Positions 1,559 through 13,426 of a stretch of DNA of 64,000 bases are shown in pieces. The translations under genes and the position numbers were made by a program. Within the stretch, counting starts at the first letter, position 1. Every line of letters begins with the position of its first letter. The stretch is from a bacterium (GTDB lineage: Bacteria > Vulcanimicrobiota > Vulcanimicrobiia > Vulcanimicrobiales > Vulcanimicrobiaceae). Location of the stretch: NCBI GenBank assembly GCA_021805775.1, contig JAJZED010000011.1, positions 1 to 64,000 of the forward strand, in the 5' to 3' direction. The notes under the pieces were generated by a model, which was not told where the DNA came from, made no database searches, and saw nothing but the letters and a program-made list of their open reading frames with translations.

Positions 1559-4500
1559 TTAATTCGCGACCAACGTGTAGGTGATGACCGAGCTCTGCGC
1601 GCTTAACGATTCAGCCCCAAGTGCAAGCTGAAAGTTTTGCAAGATGTCGTAAGGCGAGGTGCGTGCAGGAATACTGGTCCCGTTCGCAACCTGCAAGCTC
1701 GTCGCCGTCGGAACAACGGTGAACGTCGGAACGTCGAAACTAATGCCGGCTCCCTGCGACGAATTCGTAGAATCGGTCTGCGTCAACAGTTCGTTCGTCG
1801 GCGAGCCCGTACTGTTAACCGGGTTATTACTCGCTTGCACCGAGAGATTCCAGGTCATCCCCGTCGCCGATTGGATGATGACGCTCGCGCGAACGATATC
1901 GCCGAATGTCGTCGTCGTGTTGTTGCTATAGTTGCCCAAGGTGACCGTCGAGCCCGAGAACGAGCAGAGCGCGCAACTCACGTTCGGCGTCGAGCCGCCT
2001 GGGCCTGGATTCGCGGGATCGACAACCACGCTAAGGCCGACCGAGAGCTGGACCTGCACTTCATCGTCACCGAGCCAATTCGGGCCACCCACCGTTCCGT
2101 TCGCGAGCGTACAGGTACCCGCGATATTGTTGATGCAGTAGGTCTGAAACTGATAGGAATCGCTATTCGATTGCGGGCCAATCGCGGTGTATGAGATCGT
2201 CATCGTGTCGCCCGGTTTCAGCAAGCACGTACCACCGCCGATATCGATCTCCCCATCGGCTCCCCCGGAGGTCGCCGACATCGCTGCAAGCGCATTGGTA
2301 ACGGTACAGCCATCGACGTTGCCCGAGAGCGTCGGTATCGAGCCCGTGACGTGCCAGAAGTTCCCGCTGCTATCGGTAGCATTGACACCGTTTACATCGG
2401 TCCCGGGTATGCGTATCCGGAACGAAGTAATGTTAGTGCTGACACCCGAGTTATTCGACACCGTATAGGTATACGCGTTTCCGTAGGTCGCGTTCGCGTT
2501 TCCGCCGATCGTCGGCTCGGTGTTCGTCGCGACCGCCGTCGCCGACGGGTAGCCTCCCGCGCCGGTAAAGCCGTCGCCCGCCGAGACGCTATTCACGAGC
2601 AGCTGGAAGGTCTTTCCGGAAGACCAACCGTTGCCGTTCGCCCCGTGGGCGTAGATGGTGAACGGCACGTTCCCGGTGGTATTCAGGTTTTGCAACGTGA
2701 ATTTCATTGTGAGAGACTGGCCCGCCCCGAGCGAATTGGTAATCCCGCCCACGTTGCACTGGGGCTGCGGCCGCGTGTCGGGAGCGGTGAGCACGGAGCC
2801 GACCGGCGGCGGCACGGCGTTCGCGACATTCACGTTGTTACACGCGCTAAATATCCAATATCTCTGCGACCCGCTGACCTGACTTCCTACATAACTCCAG
2901 CCGGCAGGCGAGACGACGCTGGGATTTCCCGAGGTAGAGAGGGCATTCGATGCTGCCACAACGACCGTATCGACATAGTCGGGGTTTGGATCTGCACCGA
3001 GGGAAGTGTTTTGAAAGATCACGTTTTCCGAGGAGGTCGACCCGGTGCCAACGGTCGCCGGGGAAAAATAGGCCGACATCAGCGCCGAGTTGAGGCTAAA
3101 CTGGGCATAGGCAAGGCTATCGACCGATGCGTTTGCAAGACCGTTGAGAATGGGAACCGTGGTCGTTCCGGTCGGTGTGATAACGAAAAACGAGCCCCCT
3201 GCCGAAAGGAGCGCCCAATCGGAATACGGGTTCCCACCTGGCCCCGGGTTGACATCGATATAAAAAGTCTGGGTCGCACCTGGTAAAATACCGTTGCCGC
3301 CGCCGCCGCCTTGAAAATAACTATAATCGGTAAAGCACACGTACGACGTCGGGACGGTCTGGACCGCGTTCGCACATCCGTTATCCGGTTGCCAATTATC
3401 AACATTAAAGTTTGGATCGACCTGATAGATCTCGAGGTTGTTGGTTCCTTGCCAATAGCCGCCACCGAGCGCGAGTTCGTAGATTGTCGAGGGGGAGTTG
3501 TTCTTAATATTAAACCCGATGATATCGAAACCATTGGGGCTTAGGGAATACGGCGAATTTCGCTCGTACTGCGCGTTGGTGGTATGTGGGTCGAAGAAAT
3601 GCGCCTCCACGTCCTCGGGTGCGCCGGAGATGTAGACCGGGGAGAAGACTCCGGACAGAGCGACGCTCGCCGTCGCTCCCGAACTTCCGATCGAGATATA
3701 GGCCGGTGCGTACGCTGTGAAAGCGCTAGTGCTCGACCACGCGAGGCCGTGCGTCGGCAATACCGATGTGAGCATCTGGCAGGTGCCGTTTGTCGAACAA
3801 AGGCTTCCCGCCTGATCGGTTACCACGGCGTTCGCCAGCGTAATCGAGGCGTCGGGTGCAAACTGCTCGCCGGCCGTTGTGGGGTCGATCTCGATCGCGC
3901 ACTCGTCACGTGGAGCGCCGGCGCCGCCCGTGTTTGCGCAAAGATCGTTCACCTTCCACGCGTTGCCGTTGGAATCGTTCACGGTTGCGCTACAGCCCGC
4001 CTCGCATTGGGCAAGCGTGTTGCCGGCGAGAACAACCGTTTCGCCGTACCCTTTGGTCTTGCTAACACTCGTCCCGAAATCTACGCCCGTAGAAAAGGCA
4101 ATCTTCGCAAACGAATCGCTGTTGCCGATGCCGCCGAACTCAACCGGGCTACTGTTCGTAAAGGTGAGGTTCGTGGTGGCACTGCCGCCGGGGCTGGGAA
4201 TCGTCAGCGTTATGCCGCCGCCGGTATAGGTCGTCGAAACATAGTAACCCAAGACTTGGAAGACCTGCGAGGCGTAGACCGACTTCGCCACGGTGTCGTA
4301 GAGCTGCGCAGTAAAGCTCCGCGGAACATAGCTACCCGGGGCGAGTGCCGAGGCTGCCCCACCCGTCTGAGGATTAGTCAACGAACCGGTCTGGAACTGG
4401 AAGGTATGCGAGAGGTTTCCGCCACCGGTTACATTAGCATTCCACAACGTCTGGCCGGTCGGGTCGGTGATCGTCCACGTATAGGTCGACGACGGGGCGA

Positions 4501-5656
4501 GGAGGACGCTCTCGGTTAATCCGGAGGTCGATTGGTCGGTAGGACCATCCCAAGCAAATTCCGTAGCGGCGGTCGGGACGGGAAGAGGACGCGGCGAAGG
4601 ATTCGCGTTCGTTCCATCGGGTGTGAGAACCATCGTCTGGCCGCTCGAACCGGTCACCGAGACCTGCACTTGGGCGAGCCGCTCGTTTTGGGTTTTATCG
4701 TAGAGGACGACCGAATAGGTACCCGCAGCTTGCGTCGGGGAGATCGACCACGTAACCGCGAGGTTGCCGCCGGGTGCCTGTGCGCCGCTGGAGAGATTCG
4801 GCTGGCAGAGCCCATTTGCGGCATACGACGATTGTACCGGGGCTGAGAAGATGCAGACCGGATTGATCGACGTCGACTCGATGTAGACGACGTAGTAATC
4901 CGAGGGCGTCAGGTTCGTCGCGTAGATGTACGCCGCGACGCTCGACCCGGCGGCAAATTGATAGATTTCCTGCGTGTGAAACGCATCTTGGTAGACCTTC
5001 AGGTCGTAGGTGGCGCTCACGTTTATGTAAACGACGGCAGCCCATTTCCCCTGGGTGACATCGTAGACGGCAAATACATAGATCCCCGCGACCGAGGTTG
5101 TTAGAGTGTGAGTCCCACTTTGCGGGGCACCGTAGTTCCCTCCGACCGCAGTCGCAGCCGTACCGTCGGCGACGTTCGGAGCAATATAATAATTATGAAA
5201 CGTGTCACCGCCGGAGAGTCCTTCGGCTTGCCAGCGAATCTTACACCCGACGGCGAAGTCGTCGCCGATGCTGTTACTACAGTTTGCGTTGCCAGTCTCG
5301 GCAACGACGATCGATGCGCCGGTCGCCGCTTGAATCTGCCGTCTGCCCGGCGTAGCGGTGTTTGCAATCGACCGGGCCGGAAGCGGCGGAAGCATGCTCA
5401 ACGGAACGATCGCTCCCGGAAGCGTCGATGGCCCACCGCCAAAGGGAGGTTTGAACGGAGTCGGTGTTGAGAGAGGCACCGGCGTTCGAAACGGAGGTAG
5501 GGGCAATGGCGTGTGCAGGATCGGCATGCCGATGGGCGTCACGATCGGGTGCGGCACGATGCGCGCCGGTACCCCGCCGCGCCCGAACGCCGTGGCGACC
5601 GCGGCGGCGGCGAGGATCGCTGCGACGGCAAGTGATTGCAGGCGGCGTACGTTCAT
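1559..5656 (-). CDS. Giant secreted beta-rich protein (candidate fibre tip/adhesin)
   Basis: 1365 residues. Residues 1-26 form a signal peptide (MNVRRLQSLAVAAILAAAAV start). A proline/threonine-rich linker follows to about residue 80. The rest is Thr/Ser/Asn/Gly-rich sequence with repeated beta-sandwich-like stretches. The C-terminus, SSVITYTLVAN, has the same alternating YTL ending as the pilin-like proteins of this locus. No enzyme motif is visible. It starts at the stop of the upstream small secreted gene (5656 shared). Position last in the putative fibre operon and its size suggest a surface adhesin or tip protein; this is inference. Confidence 0.75.
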   Translation of the reverse strand: MNVRRLQSLAVAAILAAAAVATAFGRGGVPARIVPHPIVTPIGMPILHTPLPLPPFRTPVPLSTPTPFKPPFGGGPSTLPGAIVPLSMLPPLPARSIANTATPGRRQIQAATGASIVVAETGNANCSNSIGDDFAVGCKIRWQAEGLSGGDTFHNYYIAPNVADGTAATAVGGNYGAPQSGTHTLTTSVAGIYVFAVYDVTQGKWAAVVYINVSATYDLKVYQDAFHTQEIYQFAAGSSVAAYIYATNLTPSDYYVVYIESTSINPVCIFSAPVQSSYAANGLCQPNLSSGAQAPGGNLAVTWSISPTQAAGTYSVVLYDKTQNERLAQVQVSVTGSSGQTMVLTPDGTNANPSPRPLPVPTAATEFAWDGPTDQSTSGLTESVLLAPSSTYTWTITDPTGQTLWNANVTGGGNLSHTFQFQTGSLTNPQTGGAASALAPGSYVPRSFTAQLYDTVAKSVYASQVFQVLGYYVSTTYTGGGITLTIPSPGGSATTNLTFTNSSPVEFGGIGNSDSFAKIAFSTGVDFGTSVSKTKGYGETVVLAGNTLAQCEAGCSATVNDSNGNAWKVNDLCANTGGAGAPRDECAIEIDPTTAGEQFAPDASITLANAVVTDQAGSLCSTNGTCQMLTSVLPTHGLAWSSTSAFTAYAPAYISIGSSGATASVALSGVFSPVYISGAPEDVEAHFFDPHTTNAQYERNSPYSLSPNGFDIIGFNIKNNSPSTIYELALGGGYWQGTNNLEIYQVDPNFNVDNWQPDNGCANAVQTVPTSYVCFTDYSYFQGGGGGNGILPGATQTFYIDVNPGPGGNPYSDWALLSAGGSFFVITPTGTTTVPILNGLANASVDSLAYAQFSLNSALMSAYFSPATVGTGSTSSENVIFQNTSLGADPNPDYVDTVVVAASNALSTSGNPSVVSPAGWSYVGSQVSGSQRYWIFSACNNVNVANAVPPPVGSVLTAPDTRPQPQCNVGGITNSLGAGQSLTMKFTLQNLNTTGNVPFTIYAHGANGNGWSSGKTFQLLVNSVSAGDGFTGAGGYPSATAVATNTEPTIGGNANATYGNAYTYTVSNNSGVSTNITSFRIRIPGTDVNGVNATDSSGNFWHVTGSIPTLSGNVDGCTVTNALAAMSATSGGADGEIDIGGGTCLLKPGDTMTISYTAIGPQSNSDSYQFQTYCINNIAGTCTLANGTVGGPNWLGDDEVQVQLSVGLSVVVDPANPGPGGSTPNVSCALCSFSGSTVTLGNYSNNTTTTFGDIVRASVIIQSATGMTWNLSVQASNNPVNSTGSPTNELLTQTDSTNSSQGAGISFDVPTFTVVPTATSLQVANGTSIPARTSPYDILQNFQLALGAESLSAQSSVITYTLVAN

Positions 5657-6327
5657 CAGTAATACAGCGTATAGACCGCATTGGTGCTATACGTCCCCCC
5701 GGAGACGCTGACCGGAATGCTCAGCGTCAGATCGACGCAGTAGGTCTTTGTACCCCCGTTTGTTTCAACGGATGTCCACGTCCCACCGTCGTCGCTATAG
5801 ACGTAGAACGGCGTCGCGGTTGCCAGCGGCGATGTTAGATAAGTATTATTCGCCAGATCCTTCCCGGGAAAAGTTGCCGCGAAGTCGGCGAATAATCCAT
5901 CGTAGAGATCCCAGTACGTAACGGTCGTATTTACCGTAATCGTATAAGCGCACGGCACCACAACCGTCGTCCCGGCCGTGGCATTGATCGTCACGGAATT
6001 CAAGTTGCTCACTAACAAAGTGCCGAGAGGATTCGGTTGGACCGACGCCTCGACGCGAACGGCCTGCTGATTTTGTGCGACGAGGTTATTAAGCGAAAGC
6101 GCTCCTGCCCTAATCGTTCGCTTGGTATCAAGCGTAAAGGCGGCACGTATTTGCGACCCCGTTGTCGCCGTCGGCGCATAAGCCGCCATCCGTGGAGCCG
6201 GGGTGACATTGACAATGATCGTTACCGCAATTTGGTCGCGCTGCTGCACAAAAAGCGCGAGAGCAACCGCAATCGAGGCAAGGGTCAGAAATGCTGCAAG
6301 GAGTGCCGTGCGGCCGGCGCGTTTCAT
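5656..6327 (-). CDS. Secreted minor pilin-like protein
   Basis: 223 residues from ATG at 6327, which overlaps the TGA of the upstream gene (ATGA). Residues 1-27 (MKRAGRTALLAAFLTLASIA start) form a signal peptide or N-terminal anchor. The mature part begins with an alternating hydrophobic strand (IAVTIIVNVTP) and ends TYSTNAVYTLYY, matching the YTL-type last strand of its neighbours. Two cysteines (CAYTITVN and YCVDLTL) could form a disulfide. No known family can be named with confidence; role as a minor fibre subunit is inferred. Confidence 0.65.
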   Translation of the reverse strand: MKRAGRTALLAAFLTLASIAVALALFVQQRDQIAVTIIVNVTPAPRMAAYAPTATTGSQIRAAFTLDTKRTIRAGALSLNNLVAQNQQAVRVEASVQPNPLGTLLVSNLNSVTINATAGTTVVVPCAYTITVNTTVTYWDLYDGLFADFAATFPGKDLANNTYLTSPLATATPFYVYSDDGGTWTSVETNGGTKTYCVDLTLSIPVSVSGGTYSTNAVYTLYY

Positions 6328-6989
6328 TTCGCCACCACCGTGTAAACAATCCAAACATAGTAATGCCCGTTTGTTGCCGAATTCGGCACCTTTACCTCAT
6401 AATCGTAGTAGTACGTGCCCGTTGCGGAGAGGCTCTGAGCGATCGGAGCCGGGTAGGTCGTGTACGCAATCGTCGGCGCCGTCGCGTAACCGCCGCCGGT
6501 AACCGCGCCGCTTGTCTTCATGAACGGCGCGCCCGCTGAAAACCCGGTGTTCGGATCGGAGCTCGCCGTCGACGGCAGATAATAGACCGTCTGCGAGACC
6601 GGCACGCTCGTCCCATCGGTAAGATTGTAGAAATCGGCCGCGCCCTCACCGTAGATATTAAATCCGGTCGACGAGTTTGTGGTGACGTTGAGTTCGATGG
6701 CGTACTTATAGAGGTAGGTCTTGCCGGCCTCGATAGTACCGAAATCGACCGATCCGCCATCGAAAAACGCATTCGGCCCATGCGTCGGTGCCGGTTGCGC
6801 GCCGATGACCGCAGGAACCGCGCCGAAGCCGCTGTTGTAGTTCGGCGTCAACGATAACTTCACGATTGCGTTGGTACGCCACGTGACGACAGTCGAAGCG
6901 GTCGAGGCGAGAACGGCAACCGGGAGTAGCGCCATCATTGCGATGGCGATCCCGATCCCCCGTATCCGTGTCGTTCCTCTGCGTTCCAT
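6324..6989 (-). CDS. Secreted pilin-like protein
   Basis: 221 residues from ATG 6989, chosen because a basic start (MERRGTTRIRG) and a hydrophobic signal segment follow directly and AGGGG lies 8 bases upstream. The mature N-terminus STVVTWRTNAIVKLSLTPNY parallels VTVDWNTQKIASIVLTTQYN of the protein at 7919-8581, so the two are probably homologous subunits. It ends YYVWIVYTVVAK. A longer reading frame reaches 7130 but lacks a signal sequence. Gene order and overlaps place it in the fibre operon. Confidence 0.7.
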   Translation of the reverse strand: MERRGTTRIRGIGIAIAMMALLPVAVLASTASTVVTWRTNAIVKLSLTPNYNSGFGAVPAVIGAQPAPTHGPNAFFDGGSVDFGTIEAGKTYLYKYAIELNVTTNSSTGFNIYGEGAADFYNLTDGTSVPVSQTVYYLPSTASSDPNTGFSAGAPFMKTSGAVTGGGYATAPTIAYTTYPAPIAQSLSATGTYYYDYEVKVPNSATNGHYYVWIVYTVVAK

Positions 6990-7050
6990 CGTGGTAACCC
7001 CTACCATCCTCCGTGAGCCTACAACCGTGCTGCCGCGCCGGGAGGGCGGG

Positions 7051-7845
7051 CTAGCGAACCGTGAACTTGATACCGCCTGCGGTATCGGTCTTGCCGTTAT
7101 AATCGATCGTCGCGATCGCTTCGTACTCACCGGGTGCGAGCCGCTTTCCTTGGAGCTCCAACAATCGCGTCCCGCCGCGTTCGACGAGTTGATTGCTGGG
7201 GATCGGCACCCTGTCGACGATCTTGCCGGAGGTCGTCTGCACGACGAGCTGCCCCCGAAGGTAAACGTGTGCGTTTCCGGTATTCTTGAAGAGCACGTGA
7301 TAGATGCGCCCGAGCGGATTTGCGTAACTCGCCATCCGCACGATCGCCCCGTCGATATGGACGGTATCCGGGATCGTTTCGTAGATCTTCGAAGCGATGC
7401 GTTCGGAGAACGCGACGGTCTGCCCCGGCTTGCGCTCCGGCCGCGTCTGAAAAAAGACGATGCCGGCGTACTCGCCAGAGAGCGCGTGATTCGAAGGCAC
7501 TTGGATCGTCAATTGCACTTGCTGCGAGGTATTCGGCTGAATGTTGAATTCACGCGGCCGGATCGAGGCCCATTTCATCAGCGAGTTCGGCCGCGAACCC
7601 ACTTTGGTGAAGACGTAACTCCCTGCTTGATTCACCGTGAAGTCGACCATCGTCGCCTGCACGTGCGTCGAGTTGAGCCCCGAGTTATGAATCGTGATCG
7701 GTATGTTGTACGTCATGCCTCTGGGAATCGAAACCTCAAGTTTCCCCGGCGTCACCTCAAGCCCAATTTGGAGTGAGCTTGCACGGATCGGCCAGATGAG
7801 GAGCGTGAGTGCCGCGAGCGCGCGGAGCGATCGGAGTTTCAGCAT
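7051..7845 (-). CDS. PapD-like periplasmic chaperone candidate
   Basis: 264 residues with a signal peptide (MLKLRSLRALAALTLLIWPI start, cleavage near residue 23). An N-terminal Ig-like domain starts LEVTPGKLEVSIPRG, continues with a 'NSG...HVQATMVDF' strand pair and closes with FNIQPNTSQQVQLTIQVP, the layout of the first domain of pilus chaperones and related extracytoplasmic Ig proteins. A second beta domain covers about 165-264. Unlike DUF916 proteins it has no C-terminal membrane anchor, which fits a soluble periplasmic role. It sits between pilin-like genes. Chaperone function is inferred from fold-like pattern and context. Confidence 0.6.
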   Translation of the reverse strand: MLKLRSLRALAALTLLIWPIRASSLQIGLEVTPGKLEVSIPRGMTYNIPITIHNSGLNSTHVQATMVDFTVNQAGSYVFTKVGSRPNSLMKWASIRPREFNIQPNTSQQVQLTIQVPSNHALSGEYAGIVFFQTRPERKPGQTVAFSERIASKIYETIPDTVHIDGAIVRMASYANPLGRIYHVLFKNTGNAHVYLRGQLVVQTTSGKIVDRVPIPSNQLVERGGTRLLELQGKRLAPGEYEAIATIDYNGKTDTAGGIKFTVR

Positions 7846-7855
7846 CGTGCCCTCT

Positions 7856-7893
7856 CGCTTCGTTGCGGGGAGGTGAGTCCCCGCAACGAAGCG
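7856..7893 (-). promoter_or_regulatory. Strong intercistronic stem-loop
   Basis: A perfect 15-bp inverted repeat, CGCTTCGTTGCGGGG with CCCCGCAACGAAGCG, separated by 8 bases, lies between the stop of the pilin-like gene and the chaperone-like gene. No T-run follows on the minus strand, so it is not a standard terminator. It may stabilise the upstream mRNA or reduce downstream read-through, as at other pilin operons. Confidence 0.65.
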
Positions 7894-7918
7894 TGACGCG
7901 CCAAGGATCGTACCTACC

Positions 7919-8581
7919 CTAGTTCGTGGTCAGGGTGTAGGTGACGGTCACCGATTGCGCGCCCGAAGGGGCGTTCGGTGCGATCACCAACTCGACATCG
8001 CCGCCGAGATTGGTGCCGGTCGTCGCCGCGGCGGTCGAGAGCAGTGTCCCGCCCGTGCCGTTCATCGCGAAGTCGCCGCCGGGGCACGCGGCGGTGCTCA
8101 CGATCGAGGGAGCCGACGCGCGAGCCGAGGCGGTCGCCGCGAGGTTGTTTGCATAGCTGCCGTTCGGCAGCAGGCAGAGCAGGAAGCCGCTCGCCGGATA
8201 GCCCGCGGTCGCCGCTTCGGTCACCGAATAACCGAGCGAATCGTTCGTGCCGATCGCCGCGTTGACGGCGTTGAGCTCCATACAATCGGTGTACTGTGCG
8301 ACGTCGGGCGTCACGTTTCCGAAGTTGATGATTCCGGATGTGGCTTCGGTATCCGAAGCCTGGCAGATGCCGGCACCGGTGTTGAGATTGGCATCGATCG
8401 TTTCGGCACCGGTATTGTGCGTGCCGAGCGGCGAGCCGTTATACTGCGTCGTCAGAACGATCGACGCAATTTTTTGAGTGTTCCAATCGACGGTGACCGT
8501 CGGAGAGGCTGCGAAGGCCGGAGCCGTCGAGATAACGAGCGCTGCGAACGTCGCAAGCGCGAGAATGCGTTTTGTATTCAT
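7919..8581 (-). CDS. Secreted major-pilin-like protein
   Basis: 220 residues. A clear signal peptide (MNTKRILALATFAALVISTA start, AFA cleavage near 24) is preceded by AAAGGA before the ATG. The mature N-terminal strand is VTVDWNTQKIASIVLTTQYN; four to five cysteines could form disulfides; the C-terminus is SVTVTYTLTTN. Alanine/threonine/glycine-rich composition and the last-strand pattern resemble spore-coat-U/archaic chaperone-usher pilins, although no family hit could be run. The strong stem-loop just downstream suggests it is the most abundant product of the operon. Function is inferred. Confidence 0.65.
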   Translation of the reverse strand: MNTKRILALATFAALVISTAPAFAASPTVTVDWNTQKIASIVLTTQYNGSPLGTHNTGAETIDANLNTGAGICQASDTEATSGIINFGNVTPDVAQYTDCMELNAVNAAIGTNDSLGYSVTEAATAGYPASGFLLCLLPNGSYANNLAATASARASAPSIVSTAACPGGDFAMNGTGGTLLSTAAATTGTNLGGDVELVIAPNAPSGAQSVTVTYTLTTN

Positions 8582-8731
8582 GATCCTTTCACCATGCGCG
8601 AGAAGTCGCCGTCCTTGGCGGGAGCGAGAACTTTTACGTTTATCGTATCGGTCGCCTGCTACCGAAACTTTCTATGAATGGGTCAAGGGGTAGTAAAGTT
8701 ATGACGGTGCTTTTAGTAAAGATTGTTATTG

Positions 8732-11700
8732 CTACTGAAGTCGCACCGTAAATCGGCCGTGCGCGGTAACCAACGTCCCAACCATCGGCCGGGCGCTGAG
8801 CCGAAGCGTGAAGGCGAAGAGCCGCCCGACGAGCGGCTTTCCGAGCACGCTCTTCTGGCCGTCGGCCCAAAGGATACGGTCGCCGGGGCGGACGTCGGCG
8901 AGGAAACGCGCCCGCACGGTCACATACTCCCCAATCTTCGCCGTCACTGGGCTCGCGGAGAGAATCGCGATCGGCAACCGCGGATCGACGGTGATCTCAG
9001 CGGAGAGCGGGGCGCGCCCCGTCGCTGCACGAGCGCGCACCTCGAAGCGGCCGGCGCGCGTTCCCTTCGGCACCAATATCTCGCCGCTCCAGCGTTTGCG
9101 CGCCGCGTCGTACCGTAGATGCTCGGTATGGCCGAAAGCGATCGCCGAAATCGCGGCATTGGAGGGCGCCGCAACGGTGACCTCCGCCGCGCCTCCCGGC
9201 GGCAGGCGCGGTTCGGAGAGTTGAAGGCTCGGCGCCAAGCTCGGAGCGGCGGCTCCTGCATTGCCGAAGAACGTAAAGAGCACTTTCTTCTTCTTGCGCG
9301 AGATTTTGAAGATCGCGCCTTTGTAATGCTCGCGCGCCTTGAGCGAGATCGTCAGATCGGGGCTGACCTGGCCGAGCCCGTCGGCGACGGTCTCCGGATC
9401 GATCGAGAGCGTGTAGGTCCCCGGCGGCAGATCGTCGAGCACGAACGAGCCGTCGTCATTGGCGATCGCCGCTTCGTTCCCGGGCTCGGCGATGACGTAC
9501 GCATTGAGGACGCCGTCGCCGGCGACATACGGCTTCGGCACATCGTGCGCGTAGAGCACGTAACCGGAGATCGAGCCGAGCGGCTCGGCGGTAAAGGTTG
9601 CGTGGGCGAGCTGCCCGCGATTCACGTTGACCTTCCGCGTGAGCTCCTTCTTCGAAAACGTCGCATAGGCGGGCACCGAGTTCTCCAGCACCGAGACGGT
9701 ATGCTCGCCGGGGCTCAGGCGGCCGAAACCGTAGGCGCCGCTCGAATCGGTCTGCGAATAGGCACCGCTATCGACGCGCACGAGAACGTTCGGAAGAGGT
9801 ACGCGTTCCCCATCGCGGCTGATGCCGTAAACGTGCCCGGCGATGCCGCCGAAATCGCCGACGAGAAAACCAACCTGCGCGCTCTGCCCGCCCTGTACGG
9901 TCAGCGTCACCACCGGTGAATCGGCAGTGAGGCCGCGCGGCAACGACGAGGTCTCCAAGCGCAACTGATGTTGCCCCGGCGTTACGAAACTGAACTGGTA
10001 ATTGCCGTTGAGATCGGTGCGCTGCACGTAGCGCCCGTCGAGAACGACCATCGCGTTCGCGACTCCATAACTCCCCGACCCGACGAGATAGGTCGCCGCA
10101 GAGCCTGAATCGAGGGTCACACGGCCGCCGATCGTCGCCGGTAGGTGCGGATCGACGCGCCCCTGCACGAGCGCGCCGCTCCCGAAGACGAATGGAGCGT
10201 TCACCTGCAGATTGAATATCCGCGAGTGCCCGTTGACCTGCGGGTTCAAACGATCGACGAGCGATTCAGTTCCGTAAGAGGCGGTGAGCGAGAACGCCGG
10301 CGAGATCTGCCGGGTAACGCTGATCGTTGGGATGCGCGAAATGGCATCCGAGATCGAGTTTTGCGTCAACGTTCGCATAAAGTTCAGCGAGAGCGTCGTT
10401 TTCCCAAACGTGCTGCCGATCTGCGCTCCAAAACTTCCTTGATGCCCGCTCCCTGCGACCAAACTGGTCATCCTCATATCCTGGTCGGTCAGGGATAGCG
10501 CGAATCGGCCAAAGCGAATCTGCGCCTGCGCTGCGCTTTGCGAAGTTCCCGTCGCGGCAATGTCGGTTTGCGTGAAGCGTCCAAGCTGCTCGCTAAGGCT
10601 GAGAAACCCCATCCGCCCCGAAAACGAGAGTTGCGCGCCGGCGCTTCCGTTCCACTGAGCTCCCGAACTCGCTGCAAGCCGTTGTTCGAAAAGGTTAACC
10701 GAGTAGCCGAGCCGCCTAGCAATCTGCCCGCTCAGGATATAGGAACTTCGTCGCTGCTCGGTGGATTCGCCGTTGAGTAGAGAACGTTCGAACGCGAGAT
10801 CGAAGGTACTCGTTCCATTCCGCCCCTGCGAGATACGACTGATATCGACGAGACGGTCGCCTTCCAGCTGCCCCGTGCCGAAGGCGACGAAATCTTCGGG
10901 AATCGTCCGCGCTACCAGGGTCCAGAGCGACTTTTGCGGCCCCCAGTCGATGCGCGTCTGAGCGGCGACGCCGGCACCGCCGGGACCCTGCGAGGATGCA
11001 TTGAGTCGCTGGAGCGCAGCCTCGATGACAACCGAGGCGTTGCCGCGGCGCTGCGCAGTCCCGGTGAGCAGGGTCAACGACGAGCCGATGTTGTTTCCAG
11101 GCGGCGTCATTGCCATTCCATATTCAAAAAGCCGCCCTGCGACCAGCCGCCGTTCGCGCACGCCATAGAGTCGAATCACCCCACCCTGGTTGTAGAGGGT
11201 CGGTCCGGCGAAGGCGGTGATGTCGCCTCCATTGGCCGGGATCGTAAGAAATGCTCCTCGCAGCGTCGCCCCGATACCGAGCTGCCCGAGGATCGAGAGA
11301 CTCTCCGGCCCGTAGCCGACGGCGTAGGTCGGCGTCGAATAACTCATTACGCCGCTTCCGAAGAGGCTCGTCGTCGTCGAAAGCGTGAAAGGCACCTGAA
11401 GGTCGAGCGTGTTATTGCCCGCCCGGCGAAAGATATGCGCGAGCATGCCGACGCCGGTCTCGCTCTGGGTTTGGTTACTCGTGAGGGCGGCGGAGCCTGG
11501 GGCGGGGCTTGCGGCGCTTGCGTAGCTCGACTGGGTTCGACCGAACGAGAGCGAGCCGTTCAGTGAAAACTCGATGGGGCCGCCGCGAGAGTAGCGTGGG
11601 GTGCTCGTCGGTTTCGGGCGCGGGGTCGACGATGGACTAGGCGCTGGGCCCGGGGAGGGGGGGCTGCATACCGTCGGCTCGGCAGAGGGTGACGGCGTGG

Positions 11701-11845
11701 CCACCGCGGCCGCCCGAGGCAGCGCCGCATCGGGCGAGAAGCCGGTCGCGCCGACTCTGGGGGCTAGGCACGTTAAGAACGTCGCCACCAGCGCTAACGC
11801 AGATAACGAGAGGATAAACCTTTTTTTCGAGGCAACCGACTTCAT
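8732..11845 (-). CDS. Usher-like outer-membrane beta-barrel with carboxypeptidase-regulatory-like repeats
   Basis: 1037 residues from ATG 11845, which directly precedes a signal peptide (MKSVASKKRFILSLSALALV start); a GTG at 11896 in frame is less likely. After a Pro/Ser-rich linker (about 40-80) come about 500 residues of short alternating strands ending in aromatic/Gly residues (for example RLYGVRERRLVAGRLFEYGM), as in an outer-membrane barrel. Residues about 600-850 hold at least three carboxypeptidase-regulatory-like units (VLDGRYVQRTDLNGNYQF; VRVDSGAYSQTDSSGAYGF; a third near EAAIANDDGSFVLDDLPPG). An Ig-like tail closes the protein. First gene of the fibre-like operon, so an usher-like secretion pore is proposed; clear FimD signatures were not seen. 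Confidence 0.65.
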   Translation of the reverse strand: MKSVASKKRFILSLSALALVATFLTCLAPRVGATGFSPDAALPRAAAVATPSPSAEPTVCSPPSPGPAPSPSSTPRPKPTSTPRYSRGGPIEFSLNGSLSFGRTQSSYASAASPAPGSAALTSNQTQSETGVGMLAHIFRRAGNNTLDLQVPFTLSTTTSLFGSGVMSYSTPTYAVGYGPESLSILGQLGIGATLRGAFLTIPANGGDITAFAGPTLYNQGGVIRLYGVRERRLVAGRLFEYGMAMTPPGNNIGSSLTLLTGTAQRRGNASVVIEAALQRLNASSQGPGGAGVAAQTRIDWGPQKSLWTLVARTIPEDFVAFGTGQLEGDRLVDISRISQGRNGTSTFDLAFERSLLNGESTEQRRSSYILSGQIARRLGYSVNLFEQRLAASSGAQWNGSAGAQLSFSGRMGFLSLSEQLGRFTQTDIAATGTSQSAAQAQIRFGRFALSLTDQDMRMTSLVAGSGHQGSFGAQIGSTFGKTTLSLNFMRTLTQNSISDAISRIPTISVTRQISPAFSLTASYGTESLVDRLNPQVNGHSRIFNLQVNAPFVFGSGALVQGRVDPHLPATIGGRVTLDSGSAATYLVGSGSYGVANAMVVLDGRYVQRTDLNGNYQFSFVTPGQHQLRLETSSLPRGLTADSPVVTLTVQGGQSAQVGFLVGDFGGIAGHVYGISRDGERVPLPNVLVRVDSGAYSQTDSSGAYGFGRLSPGEHTVSVLENSVPAYATFSKKELTRKVNVNRGQLAHATFTAEPLGSISGYVLYAHDVPKPYVAGDGVLNAYVIAEPGNEAAIANDDGSFVLDDLPPGTYTLSIDPETVADGLGQVSPDLTISLKAREHYKGAIFKISRKKKKVLFTFFGNAGAAAPSLAPSLQLSEPRLPPGGAAEVTVAAPSNAAISAIAFGHTEHLRYDAARKRWSGEILVPKGTRAGRFEVRARAATGRAPLSAEITVDPRLPIAILSASPVTAKIGEYVTVRARFLADVRPGDRILWADGQKSVLGKPLVGRLFAFTLRLSARPMVGTLVTAHGRFTVRLQ

Positions 11846-11943
11846 CGAGCATGAATCGTATCGGCTCGCCACTGCAGCGGACTTACCCAAACGCACCCTT
11901 TCTTTACCAGGGATTCACCGAGCGGCGAGCAAGTCTTGGGCTG

Positions 11944-11962
11944 GTTCGGCCGATATCCGAAC
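11944..11962 (+). promoter_or_regulatory. Stem-loop in the flagellin leader
   Basis: GTTCGG and CCGAAC form a 6-bp stem with a 7-base loop about 15 bases before the AAGGAGGA Shine-Dalgarno (11977-11984) of the flagellin gene. It could affect translation or mRNA stability; no family was recognised. Confidence 0.35.
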
Positions 11963-11998
11963 TGTAGGGAATCTTCAAGGAGGAAGCCACCTTACTTC

Positions 11999-13426
11999 AT
12001 GGATGTGCTGGGGAGTGCGAGTCAGGTTCTTCTGAACCTTTCTCTCACACAAAAAAGGGAACAGACCGACATTCGCGCGCTGGCCAGCGGCCTCCGCGTG
12101 AGTTCTGCTGTTAATGACCCCAGCGGTTACGGAATAGCGCAACGCCTTCAAACGCAGGTCAACGGTTTCCAACAAGCCGTTCAGAACGTGCAGACGGCGA
12201 ACAACGCACTTGCCGTCGCAAACGGAGCCCTCACGACGATCACGCTCATCCTCCAGCGCATCCGCAGCTTGGTCGTTGAGTCGCGCTCCGATTTGAATTC
12301 ATCGACGGATCTCGCCAACATCCAGGCAGAGATTTCACAATTGTTACTTGAGGTCAATCGCATTTCGAGCAACACCAGCTTCAACGGTCTCGATCTGTTG
12401 AACGGCCAGTTCCAAACGACACCCCCATACTCGCCGGTCTCTGGGAACGGATATGGATTCGGTGGGTATCAAGTAACCTCGCCCATTCCGAGCCCCTCGG
12501 GCGCGGTTCCCAGCACGAATGTTGTAAATGCTGATGGGCTTGGGAACCCCGGACCGCTCGTAACGCTCGCGGGAAGCGGGGTTACCGTACCCGGAAATTT
12601 CATACCGAGTCTCGTAGTCTTTCAGGTAATAAGCTACTCAGCAAATGCAATCGATCCAGATACAGGAATTAACGTGGGACCGGGCGTCCTCGTGCACATT
12701 CAAGCATATAGTAACAATCCGGCTTTTGGCGCGGCACCATTGTACGAAGACACACAGGCGGTTCCCGTAAATTCCGGCCAGCTTCTTGGAATTCCAATCC
12801 AAGTGCCCAGCGCCTACGGAAATCCCTCACCGCAAAATCTCATAATCATTAACCTTGCAAACCTGACATCACAAGATGTCGGTGCGACAATTGCGTTTGA
12901 AACAGTGAACCCTCCGGCCCAGCCTCCTGCCGGCGCCGGACCGCTTTACGTGCAGGACGGTCCGCAAGAGGGGCAAACGACTGCAATTTCACTCCCCGGG
13001 GTCAGCACGAACGATTTGAACATTTCGGATATTTCCGTCCTCGCACCACAAACCGTTAACATTTTCAACCAAGTGACCGGCCAAAGTTCCAGCAACAGTA
13101 TCCCCGCAGCGGACGCAGAAATTCGCGTCGATTCGGCAATCACCGCTGTAACCCAGGCCCAAGCGCAGATCGGTGCGCAGATGGTTTCGCTGAATTACGA
13201 CGCCAACAATGCGAATACCGCGGCCGTTAACCTCACCGCAAGTGTCAGCTCGATCCAAGACGCGAATATCGGCGCGACCGTGACGGATCTCACCCAGCAG
13301 CGGATTCTCACGCAAATTGGAACGAGCGTTCTCGCGCAGATGCAAGTCAGCGCGACGCAGATCACCGCCCTGATGCTGAATGGAATCGGCATCGGGGTCG
13401 GCGCGGGGGCTGCGCCTATTGCATAA
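11999..13426 (+). CDS. fliC: Flagellin
   Basis: 475 residues from ATG 11999, with AAGGAGGA 14 bases upstream (a long spacing). The N-terminal D0/D1 region is typical: NLSLTQKREQTDIRALASGL, then NDPSGYGIAQRLQTQVNGFQ, then a heptad helix ending in SSNTSFNGLDLLNG. The C-terminal helices include LNYDANNANTAAVNLTASVS and LTQQRILTQIGTSVLAQMQV. The middle (about 140-375) is a variable Pro/Asn/Gly-rich domain with no recognised fold. The protein continues past the usual 'ML' helix end with GIGIGVGAGAAPIA. No other flagellar gene is in the window, so filament export and assembly genes must be elsewhere. Confidence 0.9.
   Translation: MDVLGSASQVLLNLSLTQKREQTDIRALASGLRVSSAVNDPSGYGIAQRLQTQVNGFQQAVQNVQTANNALAVANGALTTITLILQRIRSLVVESRSDLNSSTDLANIQAEISQLLLEVNRISSNTSFNGLDLLNGQFQTTPPYSPVSGNGYGFGGYQVTSPIPSPSGAVPSTNVVNADGLGNPGPLVTLAGSGVTVPGNFIPSLVVFQVISYSANAIDPDTGINVGPGVLVHIQAYSNNPAFGAAPLYEDTQAVPVNSGQLLGIPIQVPSAYGNPSPQNLIIINLANLTSQDVGATIAFETVNPPAQPPAGAGPLYVQDGPQEGQTTAISLPGVSTNDLNISDISVLAPQTVNIFNQVTGQSSSNSIPAADAEIRVDSAITAVTQAQAQIGAQMVSLNYDANNANTAAVNLTASVSSIQDANIGATVTDLTQQRILTQIGTSVLAQMQVSATQITALMLNGIGIGVGAGAAPIA

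Follow-up and report, generated by a model that had tools for sequence, protein, structure and literature searches.

What an uninterrupted row of genes for exported proteins builds at the cell surface is the question raised by positions 1559-11845 of the window, a 64,000-nucleotide stretch that forms the start of a contig in a 2.59-Mb Candidatus Eremiobacterota genome. A preliminary description had noted six exported minus-strand genes in a row and read them as a chaperone-usher-like system. Six consecutive open reading frames (ORFs), each with an N-terminal signal sequence, bear out the first statement. The second is well supported by the predicted FimD/PapC-like fold of the outer-membrane protein, by its post-barrel domains and by the homology of a periplasmic protein to archaic chaperones. 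We hold with considerable confidence that this operon is a divergent chaperone-usher (CU) fibre system that works like one, and we propose that its product is very probably an adhesive surface fibre assembled in the manner of E. coli pili. Its features are as follows.

8732..11845, minus strand: ush, usher-like outer-membrane protein, 1037 amino acids (AlphaFold2 model, Foldseek matches to FimD/PapC, post-barrel profile match, CarboxypepD_reg)
7919..8581, minus strand: pilA, presumed major subunit, 220 amino acids (alignment, homology to pilB, conserved stem-loop after the gene)
7858..7895, minus strand: stem-loop in the pilA/chap intergenic region (dinucleotide shuffle, covariation in relatives)
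7051..7845, minus strand: chap, periplasmic chaperone-like protein with two immunoglobulin (Ig) domains, 264 amino acids (AlphaFold2, Foldseek, hhalign)
6324..6989, minus strand (ORF open from 7130): pilB, putative minor subunit related to pilA, about 221 amino acids (alignment, hhalign with pilA)
5656..6327, minus strand (ORF open from 6354): pilC, putative minor subunit, about 223 amino acids (alignment, ATGA overlap with pilB)
1559..5656, minus strand: adh, secreted protein and presumed tip adhesin, 1365 amino acids (C-terminal motif, weak match to pilA/pilB)

The best starts of pilB and pilC were corrected to 6989 and 6327, and ATGA/TGATG overlaps couple pilB, pilC and adh translationally. 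In the taxonomic order, 43 of the 103 genomes searched have chap or a relative, and long ush matches occur in 41 genomes, every one within the order (counted from match coordinates). Gene order, for which the preliminary description had proposed a comparison with related genomes, was examined in relatives' loci taken as stretches of at most 20 kb. The six-gene content is conserved in about 20 Eremiobacterota genomes examined, in two alternative orders: ush-pilA-chap-pilB-pilC-adh in most relatives and ush-pilA-chap-adh-pilB-pilC in three other genera.

The AlphaFold2 model of chap (predicted local distance difference test, pLDDT, 92) consists of two Ig domains and terminates in a beta strand at 255-263, with no C-terminal membrane helix. 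Its best Foldseek match is the Enterococcus faecium WxLIP bound to a long WxL protein (1.5e-12), followed by YadV, CfaA, CsuC, Caf1M, SafB and FimC; apart from WxLIP, CU chaperones dominate its PDB fold list, with E-values of about 1e-9 to 1e-7. In profile comparisons with hhalign, the method behind all percentages of match given here, the Eremiobacterota chap family matches archaic chaperones at 97.5% over 191 columns and WxLIP at 97.3% over 219 columns, with reversed controls below 0.5%. For scale, archaic chaperones match EcpB/EcpE at 97.4% and FimC, a known relative, at 18%. Archaic chaperones compared directly with WxLIP give 1.6%, so the chap family, which matches both, bridges two groups otherwise unconnected by sequence. 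Judged by these profiles, chap is homologous to the archaic chaperones.

The model of ush was built from 24 orthologues and has a mean pLDDT of 75, with most of the barrel at 75-92, and a low predicted template-modelling score (pTM) of 0.48. It displays a signal peptide, a Pro-rich linker, a barrel and then several transthyretin/Ig-like domains; the barrel comprises 24 strands at least 7 residues long between residues 91 and 555. The top four Foldseek matches in the PDB are all FimD (E 9e-16 to 2e-15), led by 9fy9 (9e-16) and 3rfz (1.4e-15), and FimD and PapC make up most of the top 14; the Ig domains probably contribute part of this score. Among the matches listed, the highest target-normalised template-modelling (TM) score, 0.51, belongs to the isolated FimD pore (3ohn), whose E-value is not the best. 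The first post-barrel domains of ush match the C-terminal domains of archaic ushers, represented by the canonical PF00577 ushers of the same phylum, at 97.2% (568-741 to 606-781). Reversed-profile controls for this match give 1-3% (0.2-3.2% for reversed controls overall), and against archaic ushers the genome's remaining CarboxypepD_reg ORFs reach no more than 4.3%. The barrel alone reaches 44%, which is suggestive at most. By profile, then, it is the post-barrel domains of ush that are homologous to those of archaic ushers. The preliminary description had seen in ush a barrel with carboxypeptidase-regulatory-like repeats, no clear FimD signature and hence a distant or new type of usher. All of this stands: ush matches CarboxypepD_reg at 1.7e-14 and neither PF00577 (Usher) nor PapC in Pfam, PF00577 has no match across the window's genome, and the FimD/PapC fold matches come without an usher-type N-terminal domain. 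A barrel from a known porin or enzyme family beside small proteins of unrelated folds had been named as the contrary outcome; FimD and PapC are instead the best fold matches of the barrel model, and chap is chaperone-like. The relationship to WxLIP, the lack of the usher N-terminal domain, the stem-loop after pilA and the flagellin partner go beyond that first description.

The small proteins share features expected of donor-strand subunits. The four C-terminal motifs quoted in the preliminary description are present, within VTVTYTLTTN (pilA), IVYTVVAK (pilB), GTYSTNAVYTLYY (pilC) and ITYTLVAN (adh), and the motif is kept in 67 of 81 subunit orthologues versus 3 of 189 other proteins from the same 23 loci (Fisher p about 3e-45, the sequences being non-independent); 20 of 22 adh orthologues end in it. 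The N-terminal pattern of the VxWxTxxI type ascribed to two of the subunits is found as VDWNTQKIASIVLTTQYN in pilA and VTWRTNAIVKLSLTPNYN in pilB, and pilA combines a donor-strand-like N terminus, VTVDWNTQKIASIVLT, with four conserved Cys residues. The pilA and pilB families match at 99.2% and are, on this sequence comparison, homologous. The C-terminal domain of adh is pilin-like, and this region gives weak profile matches to pilA (75%) and pilB (74%).

Several observations weigh against a CU assignment. The PapD, Usher and pilin families of Pfam give zero matches to any operon protein, and PapD_N and PapD_C match 0 of 32 chap family members; Pfam and NCBIfam matches are limited to CarboxypepD_reg-type domains in ush and a sub-threshold match of chap to WxLIP_PGBD (DUF916), and Pfam, NCBIfam and PDB sequence searches with the subunits returned nothing useful. 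The N-terminal domain of FimD-type ushers is absent from ush: the model shows a disordered, Pro-rich segment at residues 27-87, and low-complexity sequence precedes the barrel in orthologues. The largest insertion between barrel strands, as seen in the model, is about 40 residues (157-197), below plug size. Foldseek TM scores are modest (0.24 for whole ush, and for the barrel the target-normalised value given above), and porins reach E-values similar to those of the isolated FimD pore. The hhalign E-values are pairwise, without database calibration. The subunits have no significant hhalign match to known pilins, archaic or Fim, families which themselves match each other at only 41%, and they match WxL at 2% or less; because these comparisons are non-significant, we do not claim homology of the subunits to WxL, archaic or Fim pilins. 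The terminal strands of pilA and pilC do resemble those of an archaic pilin, GSYSDSFTMTLNY, and of WxL, GYTTTLTWNL, a likeness of sequence that is only suggestive of kinship.

The alternative that survives best, although we regard it as unlikely, is that the operon is an ordinary archaic (sigma) CU member that has drifted below Pfam detection. Among the CU clades tested, chap and the post-barrel domains of ush are indeed closest to the archaic ones of the same phylum. However, PF00577 readily detects the archaic systems of this phylum: canonical PF00577 CU operons (L131-L140), whose neighbouring pilins have archaic-type ends, are present in 23 of 148 Eremiobacterota genomes, that of the window not among them, and some genomes (for example G045, G059 and G060) carry both the canonical and the new operon. 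The archaic carboxylate anchor consists of Arg89 (strand F1) and Tyr196 (strand F2) in CsuC (PMC4654587). Profile alignment places a non-basic residue of chap opposite the Arg and Leu/Ile opposite the Tyr, leaving the anchor without a counterpart. Conserved instead are Lys35 (strand A1) and Lys153 (strand G1), found in 23 of 24 chap sequences with Arg in the remaining one, and their positions are reminiscent of the classical anchor, Arg20/Lys139 of Caf1M. The invariant Tyr241 was also considered as a counterpart of the anchor Tyr and was rejected because the alignment assigns the archaic Tyr to a different strand. The missing usher N-terminal domain likewise speaks against simple drift. We tested for defining features of the existing CU clades and, since these were not found, place the operon in none of them: with no FimD N-terminal domain in ush, no plug-sized insertion in its model and no archaic anchor in chap, we read it as a new, divergent CU class and not as an archaic, alternative or classical member.

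The neighbourhood of the operon raises a second alternative, and two further features belong to it.

11999..13426, plus strand: flagellin gene, conserved divergent neighbour, an association and not a proven part of the system (Flagellin_N, Flagellin_C)
11949..11955, plus strand: GCCGATA, sigma-28-like -10 box of the divergent flagellin gene (on the flagellin strand in most loci)

The product of the first is a flagellin (Flagellin_N 1.2e-26, Flagellin_C 7.3e-10), and such a gene adjoins ush divergently in 41 of 43 ush loci (counted from coordinates), the exceptions being one second copy and one locus at a contig end. Flagellin is present in every one of the 41 operon genomes, against about half of the order overall, an association that is confounded by common ancestry; cultured Vulcanimicrobium is reported to be without flagellin and flagella (PMC9758169). 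This pairing is what would favour a flagellum-associated accessory, such as a sheath or filament decoration exported by the usher. We consider it quite improbable: none of the six proteins resembles a flagellar component, and co-regulation or inheritance may account for the adjacency. In most loci flagellin is preceded by the GCCGATA box, which in the window falls within the intergenic region 11846-11998. A sigma-28-like promoter for the operon itself was considered and not accepted, because only the window's genus has the box on the usher strand (3 loci; in the window it lies 14 nucleotides from the start codon) and the genome shows no enrichment of the pattern, which is rarer there than its reversed control (7 versus 15). 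So constant a flagellin neighbour hints that motility and attachment may be controlled together. As a separate observation on export in these bacteria, FHIPEP (FlhA/SctV) matches across the order fall into two score classes, of about 850 and 640 bits, which suggests a second export gate, possibly type III secretion-like, beside the flagellar one in many Eremiobacterota.

The affinity of chap to WxLIP opens the way to a third explanation, a Gram-negative WxL/WxLIP anchoring cluster in which chap would keep secreted subunits attached to the cell wall or surface without polymer formation. WxLIP is the best match of chap in PDB sequence as well as in fold and nearly equals the archaic chaperones in profile, and DUF916 (PF06030) gives sub-threshold matches to 28 of 32 chap members at E up to 0.1 (23.3 bits for chap of the window, below the cut-off of 27.3). 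Partner proteins of both small and large size likewise occur in WxL clusters, and in the AlphaFold2 prediction a strand of WxLIP enters the WxL sandwich in parallel and completes it (PMC10599100). On that model the insertion is in effect donor-strand complementation, although the paper mentions neither chaperones nor ushers. We nonetheless find this explanation scarcely probable, as WxLIP has a C-terminal membrane helix that is missing from chap, the subunit profiles do not match WxL, and the gene of a 24-strand usher-like barrel accompanies chap. The weakest alternative makes the barrel a transporter carrying carboxypeptidase-like domains, set among unrelated S-layer or matrix surface proteins. 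It draws on the CarboxypepD_reg domains common in other transporters and on the lack of an usher Pfam match in ush. We find it highly improbable: FimD and PapC lead the fold search, archaic usher domains find no match in generic CarboxypepD_reg ORFs of the genome, and both the homology of chap to chaperones and the motif that the subunits have in common would be left unexplained.

Returning to the operon as a divergent CU system, the directly established gene content and order, predicted folds and homology of chap and the ush post-barrel domains lead us to infer, by homology, a mechanism in which strand exchange, subunit roles, fibre and adhesion would take the following form. Sec would carry all six proteins over the inner membrane. 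In the periplasm chap would cap the subunits by lending its G1 strand, in which alternating positions are small or hydrophobic (V144, F146, E/A148, I/V150, S152, I154), parallel to the C-terminal strand of the subunit with its xYTLxxN motif. Complexes of chaperone and subunit would be received by the 24-strand ush, for which, with the usual usher N-terminal domain missing, the C-terminal Ig-like domains are the most likely docking site; an usher may thus function without a domain that recruits the chaperone at its N terminus, which is mechanistically testable. Subunits would be joined as each incoming subunit displaces the chaperone strand with its own N-terminal strand (VxWxTxxI...), with adh as tip adhesin, pilB and pilC as minor subunits and pilA as the major subunit of the shaft.

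The stem-loop after pilA may serve this last role by keeping pilA mRNA abundant. It has a 16-bp stem, a loop of 6 and a free energy of -42 kcal/mol (dinucleotide-shuffle z -5.0). Ten relatives have stems of 11-16 bp at the same location with altered sequence, and across these stems 126 of 126 cells are paired, 13 of them changed on both sides, a covariation that exceeds all 500 shuffles; distant genera have no obvious stem at this position. The stem-loop lacks a T run and is therefore not an obvious terminator; it is presumed to be an attenuator or mRNA stabiliser that raises pilA over the rest of the operon. The major-pilin genes of CU systems serve as the comparison for a stem-loop that boosts expression of the major subunit.

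CU systems are usually divided into a few clades that Pfam profiles detect. Those profiles entirely miss this operon, which is conserved across many genomes of a phylum from which very few members have been cultured. Full-text searches of PMC, which does not extend to subscription papers, turned up no account of this type of operon or of a link between WxL and CU systems. More distant relatives of chap sit in other operons that follow a like logic. Sets of small exported proteins, a chaperone and an 890-973-amino-acid CarboxypepD/SdrD_B-like protein are found in Omnitrophota (L050 7559-13766) and in another Eremiobacterota family (L121 4648-9432), and a Gammaproteobacterium has a similar set with the large gene on the opposite strand and weak domain matches (L051 8120-13526); the large proteins of these three loci differ in their N-terminal domains. 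Chaperones of this wider family match the chap family at 96-99%, and the class therefore probably extends beyond Eremiobacterota. Separately, large secreted proteins of about 165, 750, 720, 1130 and 500-900 amino acids form a conserved cluster of their own (L114 4568-12984, L115 4202-15197, L116 4436-14176, L117, L119 and L122), which in several genomes (for example L114, L115 and L122) is separated from the usher operon by about 22-29 kb; its 720-amino-acid member has the first post-barrel domain of ush in common.

Set against the known systems, the operon resembles classical CU systems (FimC/FimD, PapD/PapC) in the predicted folds of chap and ush, the 24-strand barrel, the C-terminal domains and an adhesin-like last gene in the window. 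It differs in having no detectable sequence similarity to FimC/FimD, no N-terminal domain or plug found in ush, and a putative chaperone anchor (Lys35 in A1, Lys153 in G1) that is comparable by analogy only. With alternative systems (CfaA, EcpB/EcpC) it shares CfaA as one of the best fold matches of chap, whereas chap matches EcpB/EcpE at 43% and EcpC has no match by hhalign. The archaic (Csu) systems are alike in the two-domain Ig chaperone, the usher post-barrel domains, a comparable strand motif at the C termini of small subunits and the operon logic. The new operon departs from them in its lack of Pfam matches and of the Arg89/Tyr196 anchor, in an ush that has extra Ig-like domains and neither an N-terminal domain nor, in the model, a plug-sized insertion, in subunits that cannot be aligned and in its 1365-amino-acid terminal protein.

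Also close is a second CU-like operon of Eremiobacterota (L052 9168-13195, L055 3151-8887, L060, L061 and L053), which encodes a pilin, a WxLIP-like chaperone, a pilin and a large presumed barrel protein of 712-773 amino acids and has no CU Pfam matches. Its chaperone matches the chap family at 99.9%, with about 25% identity, and its post-barrel domains match at 96.4%; it differs in a weak Cu_amine_oxidN1-like N-terminal domain of the large protein, in the lack of a large adhesin and in that no flagellin partner was seen. The Gram-positive WxLIP proteins (DUF916-DUF3324) are set apart by their membrane helix, their WxL partners and the absence of the outer-membrane usher that the new operon has, yet they provide the best fold match of chap and a profile match close to that of the archaic chaperones, and their partners end similarly (YTTTLTWNL in WxL, VTVTYTL in pilA). 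We tentatively suggest, as an idea somewhat short of even odds, that this CU class, distinct from the classical, alternative and archaic classes and with relatives in Omnitrophota and Gammaproteobacteria, contains in chap the link that traces WxLIP/WxL and pilus chaperone/subunit pairs to one ancestral donor-strand system. As a sequence bridge between WxLIP and CU chaperones, chap makes a common origin of donor-strand complementation in monoderm and diderm bacteria testable.

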